Below are positions 6,622 through 17,016 of a stretch of DNA of 18,421 nt, in pieces. The stretch lies in the NCBI GenBank assembly GCA_015064195.1, contig SVSO01000033.1, positions 1 through 18,421 on the forward strand. The letters are read 5' to 3'. The DNA comes from Oscillospiraceae bacterium (GTDB taxonomy: Bacteria; Bacillota_A; Clostridia; Oscillospirales; CAG-272). The position numbers were made by a program, and so were the translations under genes. Below the pieces are notes generated by a model, which was not told the origin of the DNA, searched no databases, and saw nothing but the letters and a program-made list of their open reading frames with translations. The stretch's first letter is position 1. Each line of letters opens with the position of its first letter.

Positions 6622-7380
6622 ATGCTGAAAACCAATCTTACCGGCCAGACGGCTGTCAGACGCATCACCGACACCGCCGGCTGCTTCTCGGTCATCGAGC
6701 ACAGCCACGACATTTCCACCTCGCCTGAAGCGGCGCAGAGGGCTTATTTCGCCGCGCAGATGAACATCCGCAAGCGGCAGGTCATCGCCGAGCTGCGCGG
6801 GAACGGCGTCACCATTCAGGCGGGCGCGATGCAGATGATGATGGGCGGTGTGGAAGCCGCCACCAATGTGAAGGGCGCGGGGGATCTTGTAAAGAAGCTG
6901 GTCGGCGGAAAAGTCACCGGCGAATCTGCCATCAAGCCTCAGTACACCGGAAGCGGCCTTCTGGTGCTTGAGCCGACCTATCGCTACATTCTGCTTGAGG
7001 ATATGGCGAAATGGAACGGCCGCATGGTCATCGACGACGGAATGTTCCTTGCCTGCGACGGAACGGTGGAGCTGAAGGTGGTGGCGCGGAATTCCTTCTC
7101 CTCGGCGATGCTGGGCGGGGAAGGTCTGTTCAACACCATGCTGGAGGGTCAGGGCATCGCAGTGCTGGAAAGCCCCGTGCCGCGGGATGAGCTGGTCGAA
7201 GTGGTGCTGGAAAACGATACGCTGAAGATCGACGGCAGCATGGCCATCGCGTGGTCGCAGTCTCTGCAGTTCACGGTGGAGCGCACCACCAAAACGCTCA
7301 TCGGCTCGGCGGCATCCAGCGAAGGTCTGGTGAATGTTTACCGGGGCACGGGCCGCGTGCTCATTGCGCCGGTGGTATGA
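6622..7380 (+). CDS. AIM24-family protein (TIGR00266-like)
   Basis: This 252-residue protein resembles the bacterial AIM24 family, named after a yeast mitochondrial inner-membrane protein. Family traits seen are the compact all-beta body with a central glycine-rich section (QAGAMQMMMGGVEAATNVKGAG), the SAIKPQYTGSG-LVLEPTYRYILL segment, and the ending in which a long beta region closes with GTGRVLIAP. No membrane segment or signal peptide is present. The biochemical role is not established; bacterial members often sit beside stress or envelope genes. AAAGGAGA at about 6608-6614 supports the ATG. The gene follows the HAD gene after 22 bases, and its stop codon overlaps the start of the phosphoesterase gene (ATGA), so translation is probably coupled. 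Confidence 0.82.
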   Translation: MLKTNLTGQTAVRRITDTAGCFSVIEHSHDISTSPEAAQRAYFAAQMNIRKRQVIAELRGNGVTIQAGAMQMMMGGVEAATNVKGAGDLVKKLVGGKVTGESAIKPQYTGSGLLVLEPTYRYILLEDMAKWNGRMVIDDGMFLACDGTVELKVVARNSFSSAMLGGEGLFNTMLEGQGIAVLESPVPRDELVEVVLENDTLKIDGSMAIAWSQSLQFTVERTTKTLIGSAASSEGLVNVYRGTGRVLIAPVV

Positions 7381-8210
7381 CACGAAAAAAACGATGGATG
7401 ATGGCCGCTGTTCTGGCGGTCATCGTCCTTCTTGCCATGATCGCCCTCGATGCCCGGCTCATGGTCCGGCGGTATTCGGTGGAGGCGGATCCGATCGCAT
7501 CCCCCATCCGCATCGCTCTCGTCACCGATCTCCATTCCTGCCGCTATGGGGAAAATCAGCGGGAGCTGACCTCGGCGATTGCGGAGGAGAATCCGGACAT
7601 TCTTCTGCTTGGCGGCGACATTTTCGATGACCGGATTGACGACACCGGCACGGCGGAATTTTTGGCGGCCATCGCGGGGAAATATCCCTGCTATTACGTC
7701 ACCGGCAACCACGAATGGTGGAGCGGTGAGGTGCGATTCGCGGAAAAAATGGCGATTCTGGCGGAGCACGGCATTCCGGTGCTGGCGGGAGAATGGGAAA
7801 CGCTGACCGTGCGGGGCGAGCAGATCAACATCTGCGGCGTGGATGATCCGGACGGCGCCCGTGCCGGCCATGCGGAGGCGTTTGAGCATCAGCTGGCGGC
7901 GGCAGAATCGGCGGCGGAGAACGGTTATTACACCGTTCTGCTGTCCCATCGGCCGGAGTATGGGGAAGCTTACGCGGCGCGGGACTTCGACCTTGTGCTG
8001 TGCGGTCATGCCCATGGCGGACAGTGGCGGATCCCGCTGCTGCTCAATGGGCTGTATGCGCCAGATCAGGGGCTATTTCCGAAGTTCGCGGGCGGGCACT
8101 ATACGCTGGGCGATACGGAAATGATCGTCAGCCGCGGCCTTGCGAGGGAGACAACCGTCATCCCGCGCATTTTCAACCGGCCGGAGCTGGTCATCATCGA
8201 TGTGAAATAG
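7377..8210 (+). CDS. Membrane-anchored calcineurin-like metallophosphoesterase (YaeI/YkuE-like)
   Basis: A basic N-terminus (MTRKKRW) and one hydrophobic helix (about residues 8-24) anchor the protein in the membrane, probably with the catalytic domain outside. The catalytic domain carries the complete dimetal site: Asp51 and His53 (TDLHS), Asp81 (GGDIFDD), Asn111-His112 (GNHEWW), His191 (LSHRPEY), and His211/His213 (CGHAHGGQ). The GHAHGGQ ending and overall length (277 residues) match YaeI/YkuE-type enzymes, which hydrolyse phospholipid- or cell-wall-related phosphoesters; the substrate here is unknown. The frame is open further upstream, but the ATG at 7377 overlaps the preceding stop codon and directly precedes the membrane anchor, so it is the sensible start. 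The gene is followed by an intrinsic terminator. Confidence 0.88.
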   Translation: MTRKKRWMMAAVLAVIVLLAMIALDARLMVRRYSVEADPIASPIRIALVTDLHSCRYGENQRELTSAIAEENPDILLLGGDIFDDRIDDTGTAEFLAAIAGKYPCYYVTGNHEWWSGEVRFAEKMAILAEHGIPVLAGEWETLTVRGEQINICGVDDPDGARAGHAEAFEHQLAAAESAAENGYYTVLLSHRPEYGEAYAARDFDLVLCGHAHGGQWRIPLLLNGLYAPDQGLFPKFAGGHYTLGDTEMIVSRGLARETTVIPRIFNRPELVIIDVK

Positions 8211-8212
8211 AA

Positions 8213-8247
8213 AGGGATACTGCAAATGCGGTATCCCTGAATTTTTT
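8213..8247 (+). terminator. Rho-independent terminator of the HAD-AIM24-phosphoesterase operon
   Basis: AGGGATACTGC (8213-8223) pairs with GCGGTATCCCT (8228-8238) around AAAT. All 11 base pairs form, with one G-T wobble. GA and then ATTTTTT follow. It begins two bases after the stop codon at 8210. Its T-run overlaps the stop codon of the convergent ABC gene at 8246-8248, so the two genes meet without spare sequence. Confidence 0.9.
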
Positions 8248-10531
8248 ACGATGCGGCGGTATTTTTCGGCGTCATCTTGGACATCTGACGCTGCGCCATG
8301 ACGAGGCCGTAGTAGATGCCCTTCTTTCGCATCAGCTCGTCGTGCGTGCCAACCTCAGCGATGGTGCCTTTGTCCAGCACGATGAGGCGGGTGGCGTTGC
8401 GCAGGGTGGAGAGCCGGTGCGCGATGGCGAGGGTGGTGCGATCCTTGATGAGCTTCTGGAGGGATTCCTGAATCTGCCGCTCCGTCTCGGTATCGAGGGA
8501 AGCGGTGGCTTCATCGAGAATGAGGATGCGCGGATTGTGCAGGAGCGCACGGGCGATGGAGACGCGCTGACGTTCACCGCCGGAGAGGGTGTGACCCTTC
8601 TCGCCCACCTTGGTGTTGTACGCATCCGGCAGCTTCATGATGAACTGATGCGCGCCGGCAATTTTTGCGGCGGTGATGATCTCATCCCGGGTGGCATCCG
8701 GCTTTGCGTAGGCGATGTTGTCGTATATCGTGCCGGCGAACAGGAAGGTCTCCTGCAGCACCACGCCGATCTGCGAACGGAGGCAGTCCTGCGAAATATC
8801 ACGCAGATCCACGCCGTCCACCTTGATGGAGCCGTCGCCGATGTCGTACATACGCATGAGCAGGTTGATGAGGGTGGATTTGCCCACGCCCGATTTGCCC
8901 ACGATGCCGATCATTTCGCCCGGCTCGATGTGGAGATTGACTTTTTTCAGCACATCTGTGGTTTCATCGTAGCCGAAGGACACATTCTCGAAGTCGATGG
9001 TGCCCTTGATGGCGATATCCTTAGCATTTTCTCTGTCGGCCACATCCACCTTTTCGTCGATGATCTCGAACACCTTGGCGGTGGAGGTCATGAAGTGGAT
9101 GAGACGGCGGGGCAGGCTTGCGATCCAGCGAAGCGGGCCGTAGATCATGCTCACATAAGCGGAGAACTGCGCCATTTCGCCCAGCGTCATCTCGCCGCCG
9201 ATGATCTTGTTGCCCACATAAAAGAGCAGGAAGAATTCGCCGATGCCCATGAAAAAGTTGAGCCACGGCCAGATGAGTGCCCAGATGCGCTCATTTTTCA
9301 CCTGAATATCCCGCAGGTCGGCGGAAATATCGTCGAACCGCTTGGCTTCCTTTTCCTCCATGCCGAAGGCCTTGACCACGCGGATGCCGGAGAAAATATC
9401 GTGAAGGATGGTGTTCGCCTTGGAGCTGGTGTGCCACTGGGTCTCCCACAGCCGGTGCATCCGCCGCCAGAAGAAGCGGAAGGACATGGCCACGATGGGG
9501 GCGGGGAAGATAATGAGCAGTGCCAGCCGCCAGTCGTAGATGAACAGCATCAGTGCCACGGAGATGAGGATGAGTCCCTGCTCCACAAGATCGGGGAGGG
9601 TGCCGGTGATGAACTGGCGGATCTGTCCGGTGTCGTTGTTGACACGGTTCATCAGCTCGCCGGCGGTGCGCTTGGAGATGCGGGAGATGGACATCATCTG
9701 GATCTTGCCGAATACCATTTCGCGCAGGCGGATGATGACCTTATTGCCCGCATGAATGAGGGCGCAGCTCCGGAGCATACCCAGTCCCTTGGTGAGCAGA
9801 CTCACGCCGGCCAGCGACAGGATGACCAGCACGAACTGCCAGAGCTGCACGGTTTCCGGTGTGGGCGTATCGATGAATTCGTCCACGAGAACGCGGTTGA
9901 GGTAGGGCGTCAGCAGGTTGACGGCGGCGATGAGGAAAAACAGCACGATGGACGCGAGAAGATACCATTTGTAGGGCTTGGCAATGTCCCACAGACGGCG
10001 CATCACGCCTGTTTTGTCCACACAGCGGGGGCAGACCGATGAGCCGGGCGGGAAGGGCCGTCCGCATTTTTCGCAGAACCGGTTGAGATCCCGCAGGAAT
10101 TCGGAGTGCCATTCGCCGGTCTCCTTGTAGCGGTTGATGTGCTTCATGATGGAGCCGTATTCGGCAGAGTGGGAGCCGTCACCGCGGCAGATGAGCACAT
10201 CCTCGCCGCCAACGGTGCATTCCGCCGTCACGCTTCCAACGCCCGCAGTAATGCGGAAATCGGAGGCATCGGCGAGCGGAATCTGCCGGATACGCGCGCC
10301 GTTCTGATAGACGATGAGGGAATCCTTTGTCAGTGCTGCCATGCCGTCCGCAGTCTGATTTTTGCGGTTGTCATCGGTCACATGGTCGGCGAGATTGCTG
10401 GTGAAAATGGTCAGAATCGCGTCCCGGTCGAGGGAATCGTCCATGGCGTGCAGCTGCTCCCAGAGAAGCTCCATGCGCGCCGCCAGCCGTTCTTCGGCGA
10501 TTCTGTCAATATCGATGGTTGTTTGTTCCAT
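8246..10531 (-). CDS. ABC exporter half-transporter with N-terminal soluble domain and zinc ribbon (second of pair)
   Basis: The 761-residue protein has three parts. Residues 1-145 are soluble, with a strand-rich, PH-like section (DGMAALTKDSLIVYQNG onward). Cys153/156 and Cys167/170 (CEKCG...CPRC) form a zinc ribbon. After that come six predicted membrane helices (about 185-470) of a type IV exporter and an ATPase domain. The latter has Walker A GKSGVGKST (545-553), Q-loop VLQET, signature LSGGE (649-653), Walker B with Asp673 and catalytic Glu674, and H-loop His705; all are intact. The open frame begins with GTG at 10540, but AAAGGAAG at 10540-10547 is too close to it; the ATG at 10531 has a proper spacing. 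The gene ends a four-gene operon with a paralogous half-transporter (about 3.8 kb upstream), and the two probably form a heterodimer. The cargo is unknown. Confidence 0.9.
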   Translation of the reverse strand: MEQTTIDIDRIAEERLAARMELLWEQLHAMDDSLDRDAILTIFTSNLADHVTDDNRKNQTADGMAALTKDSLIVYQNGARIRQIPLADASDFRITAGVGSVTAECTVGGEDVLICRGDGSHSAEYGSIMKHINRYKETGEWHSEFLRDLNRFCEKCGRPFPPGSSVCPRCVDKTGVMRRLWDIAKPYKWYLLASIVLFFLIAAVNLLTPYLNRVLVDEFIDTPTPETVQLWQFVLVILSLAGVSLLTKGLGMLRSCALIHAGNKVIIRLREMVFGKIQMMSISRISKRTAGELMNRVNNDTGQIRQFITGTLPDLVEQGLILISVALMLFIYDWRLALLIIFPAPIVAMSFRFFWRRMHRLWETQWHTSSKANTILHDIFSGIRVVKAFGMEEKEAKRFDDISADLRDIQVKNERIWALIWPWLNFFMGIGEFFLLFYVGNKIIGGEMTLGEMAQFSAYVSMIYGPLRWIASLPRRLIHFMTSTAKVFEIIDEKVDVADRENAKDIAIKGTIDFENVSFGYDETTDVLKKVNLHIEPGEMIGIVGKSGVGKSTLINLLMRMYDIGDGSIKVDGVDLRDISQDCLRSQIGVVLQETFLFAGTIYDNIAYAKPDATRDEIITAAKIAGAHQFIMKLPDAYNTKVGEKGHTLSGGERQRVSIARALLHNPRILILDEATASLDTETERQIQESLQKLIKDRTTLAIAHRLSTLRNATRLIVLDKGTIAEVGTHDELMRKKGIYYGLVMAQRQMSKMTPKNTAAS

Positions 10532-10561
10532 AGGGTTCACTTCCTTTCGGTCGTATGGAAG

Positions 10562-11347
10562 TCAGCAGGGTTTGATGGCGAGGGTAGCCATATACTGGGG
10601 CGCATATTCCCGGAGATGGCCGCAGCCTTCACGGTCGCGGTCCTCATAGAGATCCCGCAGGATGAATCCTGCCCGGAGCTGTCCGCCCAGCTGTTCCTCC
10701 AGCGAATGGGAGAACTGGATGGCGTTCAGATTGTCGCGCTGGGAGGCGAATTCCTCGTCGGACATGGCGATGGGATCATAGGGAAGCTTGTTCTTTGCGA
10801 TGAGGGGGAGCGTGCCGTCCTCATCGAACAGGAAGTTGAGGCCGTTGTCAAATCCCGCCAGCAGTCGTCCGCCGGGCTTCAGAATGCGGAAGCACTCGCG
10901 CCAGACCGGTTCGATCTCGCGGATGTAGCAGTTGGACACGGGATGGAAGATGAGATCGAAGCTGTCATCGGCAAAGGGCAGAGGCTTTGTCATGTCGCCC
11001 TTGATGATTTCAATGGCATATCCCTCCCGCTCGGCCATGATGCGCTCCTTTTCCAGCTGGCTGTCGGAGTAGTCGAACACGGTGCATTCCGCACCGTTTG
11101 CGGCAAAGACGGGCATCTGCTGTCCGCCGCCGGATGCCAGCCCCAGCAGCTTTTTGCCGCAGAGTGAGCCGAACCATTCCTCCGGCACAAATCGGCAGGG
11201 TGTCAGATACACCCGGCACGCACCGGCTTTTGCGGCGAGAAATTCTTCATGGGTGATGGGCAGAGTCCACGGACAGCCGTCCTTCGCCCACGCGTCCCAT
11301 GTGAGGGAGTTGATCTTCGTGTAGTCGCTTTTCCCGAAATGCTTCAT
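10562..11347 (-). CDS. Class I SAM-dependent methyltransferase
   Basis: The 261-residue protein has a Rossmann methyltransferase core: glycine-rich SAM loop GLASGGGQQMP (69-79), acidic residue Asp92 (VFDYS) for the ribose, Asp118 (KGDM), a motif-IV-like FDLIFHPVSNCYI, and LKPGG (156-160). About 60 residues precede the core, including a Trp-rich NSLTWDAWAKDGCPW. Such small-molecule methyltransferases are common in Firmicutes and their substrates cannot be predicted. The ATG overlaps the stop codon of the DUF1854 gene (ATGA) and has no strong ribosome site of its own, so translation is probably coupled. Its stop lies 30 bases before the second ABC gene. Being placed inside the ABC/DUF1854 operon suggests that it modifies the exported cargo or a transporter component, which is inference. 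Confidence 0.88.
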   Translation of the reverse strand: MKHFGKSDYTKINSLTWDAWAKDGCPWTLPITHEEFLAAKAGACRVYLTPCRFVPEEWFGSLCGKKLLGLASGGGQQMPVFAANGAECTVFDYSDSQLEKERIMAEREGYAIEIIKGDMTKPLPFADDSFDLIFHPVSNCYIREIEPVWRECFRILKPGGRLLAGFDNGLNFLFDEDGTLPLIAKNKLPYDPIAMSDEEFASQRDNLNAIQFSHSLEEQLGGQLRAGFILRDLYEDRDREGCGHLREYAPQYMATLAIKPC

Positions 11348-11994
11348 AAATACAGCTCGATCTTCTTGTAGCTCTGGCGGTCCAGCGCTTCCACGTCGGG
11401 GATCTCATAGCGGTTGCCGTCCACGTCGAGGATGTAGACCCGCTCTGTGCCGTTGGAATTGTGAGCCTTAATGATGCTGCGGAAGGTATCCTGCAGGGTG
11501 AAGGATTTTTCGCCGAATTCGCACTCGCATTTCCAGTAGGAGAAGCCGTAACGCTCCTTGATGGCGATGATCTTTTTGATGACCGGTGTGTAATATTTCG
11601 TCTCCAGCTCGTTTATGAGCAGAGTCTTGTCCGGATCGTCAAAATCGTCGAGGGAGCGGATGAAGCCGATCTCCTTTTTATCCTTGTCCAGCACGGAAAT
11701 GTAATCATAGGGCATATCAAAGGGAAATGCGCGGGAGAGGAAGATGCGGTCGGCGATCTTTTCCATCTTGCCCTCGGGAATGTCGGGATTCGGCACTTCC
11801 GCAGGCTTGTCGGATTTTTCATCCTTTTCCGCTTTTTCATCCGTCAGCAGAGCATCCTTCGGTTTATCGATGATGGCGCGCAGACCGATGAAGCCGTTTT
11901 TCTCGGTGATCTTGCAGTTTTCGCGGCTCAGGTATACAATATCCACGATGCCGCGCAGCTCGTTCGGGATGTTGTTTTCGATTTTGTCAGACAT
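11344..11994 (-). CDS. DUF1854 family protein, ABC-exporter-associated
   Basis: The 216-residue soluble protein matches my recollection of DUF1854. The diagnostic C-terminal half has FPFDMPYDYISVLDKDKKEIGFIRSL in spaced segments, an acidic LDDFDDPDKTLLINELETKYY stretch, YGFSYWKCE, and the ending ILDVDGNRYEIPDVEALDRQSYKKIELYL. A charged Lys/Glu/Asp-rich linker (about residues 45-75) separates it from a short N-terminal segment; this linker looks like an insertion. DUF1854 genes are known next to ABC exporters, notably in cyanophycin-associated clusters of other bacteria. The function is unknown; an accessory subunit of the exporter is the natural guess. GGAGG at 12001-12005 lies 6 bases from the ATG. 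The upstream ABC gene ends 12 bases away, and the stop overlaps the methyltransferase start. Confidence 0.87.
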   Translation of the reverse strand: MSDKIENNIPNELRGIVDIVYLSRENCKITEKNGFIGLRAIIDKPKDALLTDEKAEKDEKSDKPAEVPNPDIPEGKMEKIADRIFLSRAFPFDMPYDYISVLDKDKKEIGFIRSLDDFDDPDKTLLINELETKYYTPVIKKIIAIKERYGFSYWKCECEFGEKSFTLQDTFRSIIKAHNSNGTERVYILDVDGNRYEIPDVEALDRQSYKKIELYL

Positions 11995-12006
11995 AGTGTT
12001 CCTCCG

Positions 12007-14310
12007 TTACGCTTCAATGCCGATGTTTTTGAGGGCTTCCACCTGCATCTTGTAGAGCTTGTAGTAGATGCCCTTTTTGCCTATCAGCTCAAGGTGTGTG
12101 CCGAACTCCGGCATCTTGCCGTTTTCGATGACGATGAGCTTGTCAGCATCGCGCAGGGTCGAGAGTCGGTGTGCGATCATGATGGTGGTGCGTCCCTTGA
12201 CCAGCCGCTCAAGAGCGGTCTGGATCTGACGCTCGGTTTCGGTATCCATGGCCGCCGTCGCTTCATCCAGAATGAGGATCTTGGGATTGCGAAGCACCGC
12301 GCGGGCGATGGAAACGCGCTGACGTTCGCCGCCGGACAGATCCTTGTAGCCGAAGCCGATGCGGGTGGCGTATGCATCCGGCAGCTTCATGATGAAATCG
12401 TGTGCGCCGGCGATCTTGGAGGCTTCGATGATCTCATCCAGTGTGGCTTCCGGACGGGCATAGCGGATGTTGTCGAGGATGGTGCCCATGAACAGGTAGG
12501 TCTCCTGCGAAACGATGGAGATGTTCCGCCGCAGATCGGCAAAGGAAATATCCTTCACATTCACGCCGTCGATGAGAATTTCGCCGGCAGACACATCGTA
12601 GAGGCGGATGAGGAGATTTGCAAGCGTGGATTTGCCTGCGCCGGTGTGACCGACGATACCGATGACGTGGCCCGGCTCGATGTCGAAGCTCACGCCGTCG
12701 ATGACCTTGCGGTTCTTGACATAGGAGAATTCCACATCCTTGAAGGTAACGCGGCCTTCCATCGTCTCCATGGGAACGGGATGCTCCGATTCCACCACCT
12801 CCGGCACTGCGTCCATGACTTCAAAGAGACGGGAGCAGGCGTTGATGCAGTCGGTGGCCCAGTAGGTGAAGTCCACGAAGAAATACATGGGGCTGTAGAC
12901 CATGTTCATGTATGCGATAAAGGTGAGCAGCATACCGTAGGAGATGTCGCCCTTGATGACCATCCAGCCGCCAAATCCCCATGCGAAGATATTACCGAGG
13001 TAGAGAACGAAGCTGGACATGGGCCATGCCACGTTTTGGAAGTTGGAGAGGTTTTTGTCATTGGTGGCAAGCCGCTCGGAATAGCCGTTGAATCGCTTGA
13101 CTTCATTTTTCTCCTTGGAGAAGGCCTTGACCACGCGGATTCCGCCGAGGACATCGCTGAGCGCGCTGTTCATGGAGCGGGAGCTGGAATAGCGTTTTGC
13201 GTGGAGCTTGTCGAGGCGGGTGAAGATGAACCGCACCAGCATGACGAATACCGGAATGGTGATGAGGGACAGGAATGCCAGCAGCGGCTCGAAGCAGAAC
13301 ATGATGATGACCAGCGCGATGATCTGCACCACATTGATGAGGAAGTATGGCAGACCGTCGCAGAAGAAGCCGTAGATGGTTCCCGCATCGTTGTTGACCT
13401 GCGTCATGAGACCGCCCGTCTGACGGCCGGTGAAGAAGCTGATGGACAGCTTCTGGATGGCGTTGAAGATGGTCTGCTTCAGGTCATAGGTGATAAGGGC
13501 GGCGATCTTTGACGTGATGACGCCGTTTATCATGTTGAGCAGGATGGTGAAAATGCGCATGGCGAGGATCATGCCCAGCACCAGCAGGATCTCACCGTAG
13601 AAGTTTCCGTCCTCCTTCAGCACCTCATCATAGTAGAATGCGGAGCTGACATAGGGGGAGAGCACGCCCAGTGCGCTCATAATGATGAGCACGGAGAGGA
13701 TGATGAGGAGCTGCACCTTATATTTGAGGAAGAAAACGCTCATTCTGCGGATGAGCTTGCCCTTGTCCATGCACCGCGGACAGATCTTGCGGTTGGAATC
13801 GGGATAGCGCGAGCCGCACTTAGGGCAGAACAGGGAGGCTTTGGAATCGTCCTCGTCCAGTTCAAAGGGCTTGCCTTCCTTGGCCTTTTTCACATACTTC
13901 ACGAACAGATTCATCTGCGATTTGCAGGTGTTGGTGAACCGTGCAAGCAGGATCTGCGCTTCGGATTTGGTATTCTTCGCCACGAGTCTGCCGGATGACA
14001 GCAGATCCTCCACGGCGAAATTGTCCAGCTCCTCGAGTGTGTGGCACTCATAGGAAAGCTCGGTGAAGGTCGCTTCCAGCCGTGATGCATGGGCGGGAGC
14101 GAAGACTTTGTTTATGTTTTTCTTTTCGGTCAGCGTGACCATGCCGGAAATGATCATCAGCTCCTCGGCGGTGGCGACAAGATAGGTATCGCAGTGCGTA
14201 CCGTCCTGCATCATATCGCCCCGGGCTATGAGCAGAAGCTTATCCTCCGCCACGCCCTTTTGATCGAGAAGCTTAAGAAGTCCCGACGGATAATTATCCA
14301 GTGCAACCAA
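12007..14310 (-). CDS. ABC exporter half-transporter with N-terminal soluble domain and zinc ribbon (first of pair)
   Basis: Starting at a TTG (14308-14310) the protein has 767 residues. The first ~155 are soluble (LVALDNYPSGLLKLLDQKG, then a strand-rich PH-like part). A zinc ribbon follows with Cys162/165 and Cys177/180 (CPKCG...CPRC). Six predicted membrane helices (about 195-490) and a complete ATPase domain come next: Walker A GHTGAGKST (554-562), Q-loop VSQET, LSGGE (658-662), Walker B Asp682 with Glu683, and His714. The frame is open to a GTG at 14364, but that codon lies in the loop of a 5' hairpin and lacks a ribosome site. GGAGG at 14319-14323 is 8 bases before the TTG, so I prefer the TTG. 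It is the first gene of the operon, under a perfect sigma-A promoter, and a paralogue of the last gene. Both ATP sites of a heterodimer would look active. Confidence 0.88.
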   Translation of the reverse strand: MVALDNYPSGLLKLLDQKGVAEDKLLLIARGDMMQDGTHCDTYLVATAEELMIISGMVTLTEKKNINKVFAPAHASRLEATFTELSYECHTLEELDNFAVEDLLSSGRLVAKNTKSEAQILLARFTNTCKSQMNLFVKYVKKAKEGKPFELDEDDSKASLFCPKCGSRYPDSNRKICPRCMDKGKLIRRMSVFFLKYKVQLLIILSVLIIMSALGVLSPYVSSAFYYDEVLKEDGNFYGEILLVLGMILAMRIFTILLNMINGVITSKIAALITYDLKQTIFNAIQKLSISFFTGRQTGGLMTQVNNDAGTIYGFFCDGLPYFLINVVQIIALVIIMFCFEPLLAFLSLITIPVFVMLVRFIFTRLDKLHAKRYSSSRSMNSALSDVLGGIRVVKAFSKEKNEVKRFNGYSERLATNDKNLSNFQNVAWPMSSFVLYLGNIFAWGFGGWMVIKGDISYGMLLTFIAYMNMVYSPMYFFVDFTYWATDCINACSRLFEVMDAVPEVVESEHPVPMETMEGRVTFKDVEFSYVKNRKVIDGVSFDIEPGHVIGIVGHTGAGKSTLANLLIRLYDVSAGEILIDGVNVKDISFADLRRNISIVSQETYLFMGTILDNIRYARPEATLDEIIEASKIAGAHDFIMKLPDAYATRIGFGYKDLSGGERQRVSIARAVLRNPKILILDEATAAMDTETERQIQTALERLVKGRTTIMIAHRLSTLRDADKLIVIENGKMPEFGTHLELIGKKGIYYKLYKMQVEALKNIGIEA

Positions 14311-14343
14311 AATTGGCACCTCCGTTTTGTCAGTATGGGCAGA

Positions 14344-14374
14344 AAGAACGCCGTCTGACACCACCGGCGTTCTT
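14344..14374 (-). promoter_or_regulatory. Leader hairpin in the 5' untranslated region of the ABC/DUF1854 operon
   Basis: On the minus-strand transcript, AAGAACGCCG (from 14374) pairs perfectly with CGGCGTTCTT (to 14344) across an 11-base loop. TCTGCCC follows, without a long U-run. It lies between the predicted transcription start near 14388 and the ribosome site at 14319-14323. It could stabilise the message, act as an attenuator or bind a protein. The sequence alone does not distinguish these. Confidence 0.55.
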
Positions 14375-14395
14375 CATTCAAACAGTCATAAGTTT

Positions 14396-14424
14396 ATTAT
14401 ACAATTATTGGAGTAAATTGTCAA
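14396..14424 (-). promoter_or_regulatory. Perfect sigma-A promoter of the ABC/DUF1854 operon
   Basis: On the minus strand, TTGACA (14424-14419) and TATAAT (14401-14396) both match the consensus exactly, with a 17-base spacer. Transcription should start near 14388-14390, giving an untranslated leader of about 78 bases before the TTG start. Confidence 0.88.
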
Positions 14425-14616: not shown

Positions 14617-17016
14617 ATGCTGAACGGTAAAACTGCAAAGGAATATAAGGAGCTGCGGCGGCTCTTTGCTGCCATGCCCATGGAGTATCGGCCCGTTCCG
14701 TTCTATCATATGGACGGCTGCTTCGCCGAGAACGGTGTGCTTTGTGAGGATGCGGCGAAAAATATCGTACAATACAAAAAGAGCGGCTACGGCGGATTAT
14801 GCCCGCTGCCCGTATCTGCTGCCGCCGGTCATCGTGCAACCTCGCCGGAATTCGGTACGGCGGACTACTATGACAGCTATAAGGCACTGCTTGACAAGGC
14901 AAAAGAGCTGGATATGCGGATCATTTTCTACGATGATCTGGATTTTCCAACCGGCCGCGCAGGCGGTGAGATGGCGCGCGCATTCCCCGGCTCAACGGCG
15001 CGGATGCTCTGCCGGTACGAATATGAGTGCATGGAGGGGCAGAAGATCTGCCGCGAGCTGCATTCGGGCGGCGATGTGACACTCATGTCGCTGGTGGCCG
15101 TGGAGGTGGATGACCGGCACGTCATCGATCTGCGGGAATTCATCGAGGACGACTGCGTCTGCTGGACGGTGCCGGACGGAAACTGGAATATTGAAGAATA
15201 TGTCTGCACCTCTGCGGAAAACGGCTATGTCAACTACATGAACTACGACGCCTGCATGGATTACATCTCCCTCACCTACAAGCGGTTTGCGGATCGGTAT
15301 CAGGATTACATCGGCGATGTGGTGAACATGACCTTCTTTGACGATCTCCAGTATCAGGCCCCCAACCGCCGGATGTGGGACGATCGCTTCAACGAAATTT
15401 TTGAGGAAAAATACGGCTTCGATCCTGCGCCCTGTTATCCGGCGCTGTGGGAGGACATCGGCGAGGACACGCCTCATTACAAGGCACTGCTCATGGACTG
15501 CCGCGCCCATATGTTTGCGGACGGATTTTTCAAGGCGGTGGGCGATTTTACCCGCCGCAACGCGCTGGCTTCGGTGGGTCATGTGGCCGAGCCGAAGGAT
15601 GCTTCCGGCTCATGGCTGTACGGCGATCATTTCCTGTGGCGCAGACACGGCGGCGCGGTGGGACTGGATCTCATCCACGCCTATATGTACGGCTTCAACG
15701 GTCTGAAGCTGGCCTCCAGCGCGGCGTATAACTACGACATCGACACGGTTGCCTGCGAGATCTACGGCGCATATCGTCAGCTGGATCGGCGCATTCTCTA
15801 CTGCGAGGCCATGAATGCCTTCGCGAAGGGCGTGAATTTCATGATCCCTCACACCCTGTGGCTGTCGGGTCACGCCCGCATTCCCCATGAAGTTTCCCAT
15901 CGCAATTATAAATTCAAAGCGGATGTTCCGGAGCTGCTCGATTACATGACCCGCTGTCAGACTCTGCTTCGCGGCGGACGGCATATCGCGGATATTGCAG
16001 TGCTTTATCCCATTCATTCCATCCATTCTCAGGAATTTTTATACGAATCCGAGCCGAAGGGCTGGGAATTCTCCACCACGCCTGCCAATGCGGATTATGT
16101 GACGCTCATCAACACCATCACCGCATTTTCCGGCCGGGATGTGACGGTGATCCATCCCGAGGTGATGAGCGAGCGTATGACGGCGGACGACGGAATGCTG
16201 TATCTTAACAATACGGTGAATTTCGAGCGGTACCGCGTGCTGTTCATGCCGGGAATGTCCATGATCAGTCTCGACAATCTGCGGATGATCAAGAAATTCT
16301 GGGAGGGCGGCGGCATCCTCATTGCCACAGTGGAGCTTCCGTCCCGGGCCATGGAGTTTACGCCGGATAAAAATGCGGACGCGGAGGTGCGCCGCATCAT
16401 CGGTGAGATCTTCGGCACCAGCGGCACGGATCGCGATTCCATGACGGAGCGGCTGGAGAAGCATAACGAAAACGGCGGTATCGCGTATTTCCTGCCCTCG
16501 GACAAAACGGCGGCGGACGGCGTTTACCATGTGGACAGCAAGGCAGTGGATGAGATCCTCGACAATCTGCCGGTGGTCTATGATGTGGAAATGCTGAACA
16601 TCCCGCGGCTGGACGATCAGGGAATGCTCAGCCTCATCCTGCCCGCATTTGTAAACCACGGCGTGGCGGATGCGCTGATCAAGGGCGGCGTATTCAGTTA
16701 TATCCACAAGCGGCAGGAAAACTGCGACGTGTATTTCTTCGCCAATTCGACGGCGGCGGATTACGACGGCAGAGTGCTGCTGAGAGGCGAGCACAATCCG
16801 GAGCTGTGGAATCCCCATACCGGCAAGATCCGTAGGGCGGATTATGAGCTTGTCAACTGGCGCGGCGAGGTGTACACCAAGGTTGCGCTCAAGCTTGCCA
16901 GCGCGGAGTCGGTGTTCATCGTGAGCAGTCCGGAGAAGGAGCTGCTCGACATTATCCGTGATGCGGTTGATCCGCGCACCATCGAAGTTTTTGTGGCGGA
17001 CGAGAATAAGAAATAA
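14617..17016 (+). CDS. GH106-like glycoside hydrolase (alpha-L-rhamnosidase-related), cytoplasmic
   Basis: The 799-residue protein lacks a signal peptide. Its opening resembles GH106-type enzymes: EYRPVPFYHMDG near the N-terminus, a barrel strand with MRIIFYDDLDFPTGRAGGEMA (read in parts), which fits the usual 'YDE-G-PSG-AGG' signature, and later a TFFDDLQYQAP segment. A beta-rich region with WTVPDGNWNIEEY (about residues 185-200) interrupts the barrel. The middle (about 400-600) has VNFMIPHTLWLSG and a beta-amylase/GATase-like LFMPGMSMIS. The C-terminus (about 680-790) is beta-strand-rich. The family removes terminal rhamnose from pectic or other glycans, but many GH106-like proteins are uncharacterised, so the sugar specificity is open. 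AGGAGA at 14603-14608 supports the ATG. It appears to be a single-gene transcript with its own strong promoter and a downstream bidirectional terminator. Confidence 0.76.
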   Translation: MLNGKTAKEYKELRRLFAAMPMEYRPVPFYHMDGCFAENGVLCEDAAKNIVQYKKSGYGGLCPLPVSAAAGHRATSPEFGTADYYDSYKALLDKAKELDMRIIFYDDLDFPTGRAGGEMARAFPGSTARMLCRYEYECMEGQKICRELHSGGDVTLMSLVAVEVDDRHVIDLREFIEDDCVCWTVPDGNWNIEEYVCTSAENGYVNYMNYDACMDYISLTYKRFADRYQDYIGDVVNMTFFDDLQYQAPNRRMWDDRFNEIFEEKYGFDPAPCYPALWEDIGEDTPHYKALLMDCRAHMFADGFFKAVGDFTRRNALASVGHVAEPKDASGSWLYGDHFLWRRHGGAVGLDLIHAYMYGFNGLKLASSAAYNYDIDTVACEIYGAYRQLDRRILYCEAMNAFAKGVNFMIPHTLWLSGHARIPHEVSHRNYKFKADVPELLDYMTRCQTLLRGGRHIADIAVLYPIHSIHSQEFLYESEPKGWEFSTTPANADYVTLINTITAFSGRDVTVIHPEVMSERMTADDGMLYLNNTVNFERYRVLFMPGMSMISLDNLRMIKKFWEGGGILIATVELPSRAMEFTPDKNADAEVRRIIGEIFGTSGTDRDSMTERLEKHNENGGIAYFLPSDKTAADGVYHVDSKAVDEILDNLPVVYDVEMLNIPRLDDQGMLSLILPAFVNHGVADALIKGGVFSYIHKRQENCDVYFFANSTAADYDGRVLLRGEHNPELWNPHTGKIRRADYELVNWRGEVYTKVALKLASAESVFIVSSPEKELLDIIRDAVDPRTIEVFVADENKK

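Follow-up and report, generated by a model that had tools for sequence, protein, structure and literature searches.

MsbA, Sav1866 (2hyd), TM_0288 (3qf4) and P-glycoprotein are ATP-binding cassette (ABC) exporters with an ABC_membrane plus ABC_tran architecture, which is shared, together with strong sequence matches, by ABC1 and ABC2, two half-transporters encoded in an 18,421-nucleotide stretch of DNA from an Oscillospiraceae bacterium (contig SVSO01000033.1; hereafter the window, meaning the whole stretch that was analysed). In contrast to these exporters, the window proteins carry an additional N-terminal domain, predicted to be PH-like, and a zinc ribbon and have a DUF1854 protein as a partner, and both of their ATP sites look canonical. 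An ABC protein with a DUF1854 partner is also described by NF052233 and NF052234, two NCBIfam models named as cyanophycin metabolism-associated. In the window, a methyltransferase gene lies between those of DUF1854 and ABC2, and an earlier note on this DNA had proposed a dedicated exporter for a methylated or methyltransferase-dependent cargo. The comparison with related loci revealed that the recurring unit is ABC1–DUF1854–ABC2, without the methyltransferase, which supports a dedicated two-half ABC exporter with a DUF1854 partner. With a probability of about 0.72, the locus encodes a heterodimeric type IV ABC exporter formed by ABC1 and ABC2 with a DUF1854 subunit, of which the methyltransferase is not a core part.

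The related loci were gathered by scanning genome contigs with the window DUF1854 protein, via six peptide patterns derived from it, so that close kin are favoured among the resulting 74 loci; ABC neighbours were located by tblastn, ignoring matches below 200 bits (below 150 bits for the family loci considered below). ABC1, DUF1854 and ABC2 directly adjoin one another on the same strand in 30 of these loci. Two more display the same order with insertions: L007 contains two extra genes, the methyltransferase and a Cass2/GyrI-like effector-binding gene (L007:6308–6841) located between DUF1854 and the methyltransferase, while L018 contains a TdeIII restriction endonuclease gene (L018:3253–4050) between ABC1 and DUF1854. 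The presence of unrelated inserts in both indicates that the operon accepts insertions. ABC1 is also present in L017 and L019, the sequences of which end shortly after DUF1854. One ABC upstream and none downstream of DUF1854 were found in 32 loci, five of which are labelled Bacillota (L042, L044, L048, L050 and L055), the remainder belonging mostly to Poribacteria, Planctomycetota, Armatimonadota and Latescibacterota; in seven loci of this single-ABC group less than 1.5 kb follows DUF1854, so that a second ABC could be missed. The expected place is devoid of an ABC in eight loci (L034, L035, L036, L038, L039, L046, L054 and L057), of which L046 and L054 begin within 0.9 kb of DUF1854 and L057 has an ABC on the opposite strand.

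Within the family to which L007 belongs, DUF1854 was detected in 53 of 146 genomes (E 1e-30), and the Pfam model found it in all ten further genomes searched, nine of the 146 without a strict match plus G455. Among the best 30 DUF1854 places in this family, five of which lie in genomes already represented in the 74 loci (L001, L004, L007, L008 and L011), 29 display ABC1–DUF1854–ABC2; the thirtieth is in L007's own genome, with a flank that ends within the methyltransferase. The ABC1–DUF1854–ABC2 unit, conserved in gut Clostridia, is the two-ABC form of a widespread pairing of a PH-ribbon ABC protein with DUF1854; in the loci compared, this form was seen in Bacillota and their close relatives. 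A second, diverged ABC1–DUF1854–ABC2 triad is present elsewhere in the genome of three species of the window's genus (L099, L100 and L101).

ABC1 (12007..14364, minus strand) and ABC2 (8246..10540, minus strand) both contain PF00664 and PF00005 and have the features of type IV (ABCB-like) exporters, namely a transmembrane domain fused to a nucleotide-binding domain, Walker A and B motifs, an LSGGE signature and an H-loop, the ATPase motifs being complete in both. Their N-terminal soluble domain is PH-like in the predicted fold, and the CxxC-CxxC motif in the N-terminal region of each predicts a zinc ribbon. Such an N-terminal domain and ribbon had been noted before in both proteins and described as unusual; the observation stands, while the adjective does not, given that the ribbon motif occurs in 106 of the 109 ABC rows from related loci (a set including five repeat copies of genes already present, from L106, L109 and L110), the three exceptions being a truncated L099 gene and two further ABCs from L013. 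The combination of PH-like domain and zinc ribbon is a hallmark of the ABC1/ABC2 family, and all 12 DUF1854 genomes that were tested contain PH-ribbon ABC proteins, among them two (G034 and G038) with ABC and DUF1854 on separate contigs.

In a FastTree phylogeny of 104 rows, from which L060, L106, L109, L110, rows shorter than 590 amino acids and one other L013 ABC were omitted, all 37 ABC1 rows, the orthologues of window ABC1, fall on one side of a single fully supported branch, beside the ABC2 clade. Since the labels were assigned by best match to the window ABCs, this split is partly built in; the recurrence of the same species groups in both clades is not, and mirrored clades of this kind are expected from one duplication followed by joint descent. 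Over 25 loci, the pairwise distances of ABC1 and ABC2 correlate with r = 0.96, and those of either with DUF1854 with approximately 0.945, values that shared species history alone could produce. The mirrored clades and the complete ATPase motifs of both halves point to a likely heterodimeric exporter, with DUF1854 as a third subunit; TM287/288 is a heterodimer. ABC1 and ABC2 could instead form separate homodimeric exporters encoded in one operon, with a regulator-like DUF1854 in common, an arrangement with which the complete ATPase motifs also agree and which the single-ABC systems of the same ABC family in other phyla make possible in principle. However, the co-inheritance of ABC1 and ABC2 in triad loci, which is the support for their pairing, and the mirroring of their clades render this organization quite unlikely.

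The DUF1854 protein (11344..11994, minus strand) matches PF08909 with an E-value of 8.4e-32 and 110.2 bits, well over the gathering cut-off of 26.8. It shares with the Pfam family the near-invariant DVDGNRYE motif and differs in a charged and, in an alignment of 70 sequences, poorly conserved linker at approximately residues 45–75; the assignment draws on this alignment and on a predicted model as well. In two genomes (L102 and L103), each of which carries a single-ABC locus as well (L048 and L050), DUF1854 is fused in frame onto the C-terminus of ABC1, physically tying it to the ABC1 side. DUF1854 is probably a linked, cytoplasmic partner of the ABC exporter. In five loci in which no ABC adjoins DUF1854 (L034, L035, L036, L038 and L039), the neighbours include a D-serine dehydratase-like protein (L034 and L038), an LpxH-like phosphoesterase (L035) and a homoserine dehydrogenase (L039).

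The methyltransferase (10562..11347, minus strand) is a class I S-adenosylmethionine-dependent enzyme, as indicated by Methyltransf_11/25 scores over the gathering cut-off (E 1.9e-18 for Methyltransf_11), and belongs to a large family, with at least 7,752 matches among 7,999 candidates scored. Its closest solved relative is 8k76, which matches nearly over the full length (E 2.3e-77); the record of this structure names no function, nothing ties it to an exporter and a literature search for it found no paper. The enzyme might modify a substrate, or a lipid, exported by ABC1 and ABC2, and its 4-nucleotide overlap with DUF1854 is compatible with translational coupling. Moreover, the window and L007 enzymes are sisters in the methyltransferase tree (97/96) and the L007 gene occupies the equivalent position in its operon. 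Four DUF1854/methyltransferase protein pairs from metagenomes derive from equal-sized contigs (1892, 3658, 3805 and 44402 bases), which suggests, the adjacency not being seen directly, that both genes are kept together in further close relatives.

The distribution of the gene nevertheless argues against a role of this kind. The methyltransferase lies between DUF1854 and ABC2 in one of the 74 loci (L007) and beside DUF1854 in one of the 30 family loci, which is from the same genome; adjacency to DUF1854 is therefore nearly, though not strictly, confined to the window's genome, and the recurrence between the ABC genes that would have spoken for a conserved system is limited, among these loci, to L007. 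The genus of L007 comprises six species genomes, five of which contain a close DUF1854, and in four of these (G001–G004) the triad lacks the methyltransferase. The ABCs of the triads L001–L004, which are without the gene, are 76–81% identical to those of the window. A phylogeny built from the concatenated ABC1, ABC2 and DUF1854 sequences places the window in a group with L001 and L002 (97/95) and L007 in one with L003 and L004 (89/86); because the exporter tree separates the two loci whose methyltransferases are sisters, one gain and two losses, more than one gain, or exchange between species must be assumed. Relatives of the methyltransferase are present in 20 of the 146 family genomes (E 1e-30), all of which also have DUF1854, a co-presence that says little since DUF1854 is very common in the family. 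The two genes adjoin only in G007, are 20 kb apart in G141 and lie on different contigs in the other 18, a few of these contigs being short or starting at the gene. An order-wide search found relatives in 15 of 295 genomes (E 1e-90), of which G110 had come up earlier, and 11 loci from this search have neither DUF1854 nor ABC in their 1.5-kb flanks. One locus points in the opposite direction: in L163 (116–3004; genome G193) a relative directly precedes a 670-residue ABC exporter, which is without a zinc ribbon and approximately 26% identical to ABC1. The sister of this methyltransferase gene, in L164, has no ABC exporter as a neighbour. Considering also that unrelated genes likewise occur inside the operon in L007 and L018, export of a cargo dependent on methylation is unlikely, and the methyltransferase, a lineage-restricted insertion, is probably a passenger or a lineage-specific accessory.

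A second alternative, export of a cyanophycin-related compound such as beta-Asp-Arg, arises from the NCBIfam models, since NF052233 is the best match there of both ABCs and NF052234 that of DUF1854. The three proteins are, however, far under the curated cut-offs: ABC1 and ABC2 score 536.6 and 558.5 bits, respectively, against 880 bits, and DUF1854 scores 71.9 against 150 bits. In contrast to the systems described by these models, as compared by profile score, the window has two ABC halves and, as the earlier note had correctly remarked, neither cyanophycin synthetase (cphA) nor cyanophycinase among the proteins scanned. A passage of PMC10687191 mentions two cphA genes with an unclassified ABC transporter next to them. 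The earlier note stated that DUF1854 with such ABC exporters occurs near cyanophycin genes elsewhere; this link does not carry over to the relatives compared here. Among the genomes of 50 of the 74 loci, cyanophycin synthetase (TIGR02068) exceeded the cut-off in one, that of Sporomusa sp. KB1, where DUF1854 (4.30 Mb) and cphA (2.19 Mb) are unlinked, approximately 2.1 Mb apart on the same contig. As many of the genomes are incomplete metagenome-assembled genomes, a single absence means little, yet 49 of 50 is telling. No cyanophycin-linked copy of the DUF1854/ABC pair came up in this analysis, and a function of the window exporter in cyanophycin metabolism is highly improbable.

The open reading frames of the window form a single minus-strand operon in the order ABC1, DUF1854, methyltransferase and ABC2, with a gap of 12 nucleotides between the first two genes, an ATGA overlap between the next two and a gap before ABC2 of 21 nucleotides if this gene starts at GTG or of 30 nucleotides if it starts at ATG. 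The four-gene layout proposed previously agrees with these coordinates (its 30-nucleotide gap corresponding to the ATG start), and so does the perfect promoter assigned to it, a sigma-70/sigma-A type TTGACA-17-TATAAT element (14396..14424, minus strand) that matches the consensus at 12 of 12 positions. A promoter upstream of ABC1 is conserved in all five close relatives examined, with 12/12 matches in L001 (spacer of 18 nucleotides), L002, L004 and L007 and 11/12 in L003, so that the window promoter is unlikely to be due to chance; its strength and conservation suggest a steady, housekeeping-like expression. The actual start of ABC1 is probably the TTG codon at 14310, which is preceded by a good Shine–Dalgarno sequence (GGAGG) and whose position is shared by relatives, giving a protein of 767 instead of 785 amino acids.

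Between the promoter and ABC1 there is a leader hairpin (GAACGCCG...CGGCGTTC; 14330–14375, minus strand); only one of the five relatives (L002) has a strong hairpin at this position, differing from that of the window. At the other end of the operon, a terminator-like hairpin of 11 pairs (8213..8238, detected on the plus strand) separates ABC2 from a convergent gene (7251–8210) and is merely suggestive, the seven terminator-like sites of the region being at the chance level (6.3 in shuffled sequence). Divergent from ABC1 is a GH106-like rhamnosidase gene (14617–17016, plus strand), a relative of which (approximately 72% identity) occupies the equivalent position in L003, L004 and L007, and the adjoining gene group includes an AIM24-family protein (PF01987; 6622–7380, plus strand).

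In the proposed exporter, ABC1 and ABC2 would pair as MsbA/P-glycoprotein-like halves, each with a PH-like domain and a zinc ribbon at its N-terminus on the cytoplasmic side, and two canonical ATP sites between the two nucleotide-binding domains would power export. The PH-ribbon domains and DUF1854, the latter presumably docked near the C-terminus of ABC1, may constitute a cytoplasmic module for gating transport or for bringing in cargo or partners on the inner side of the membrane, and the closeness to MsbA-like exporters hints at an amphiphilic or envelope-type cargo. A more far-reaching picture, which is rather unlikely, is that gut Clostridia possess near-universally a constitutive exporter or flippase of three subunits, derived from a single-ABC system of many phyla, with a cytoplasmic PH-like/DUF1854 gate of a kind not known from other ABC exporters and a methyltransferase added in one lineage for cargo modification.

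DUF1854 is common, occurring in more than a third of the genomes of one family (53 of 146), yet a text search of one open-access library found no paper containing DUF1854 or PF08909. The database name derived from cyanophycin may mislead annotation, considering that 49 of 50 DUF1854 genomes have no synthetase above the cut-off. Handles on this uncharacterized exporter are offered by its PH-ribbon domains, by the mirrored phylogeny of the two ABCs and by the natural DUF1854 fusions.
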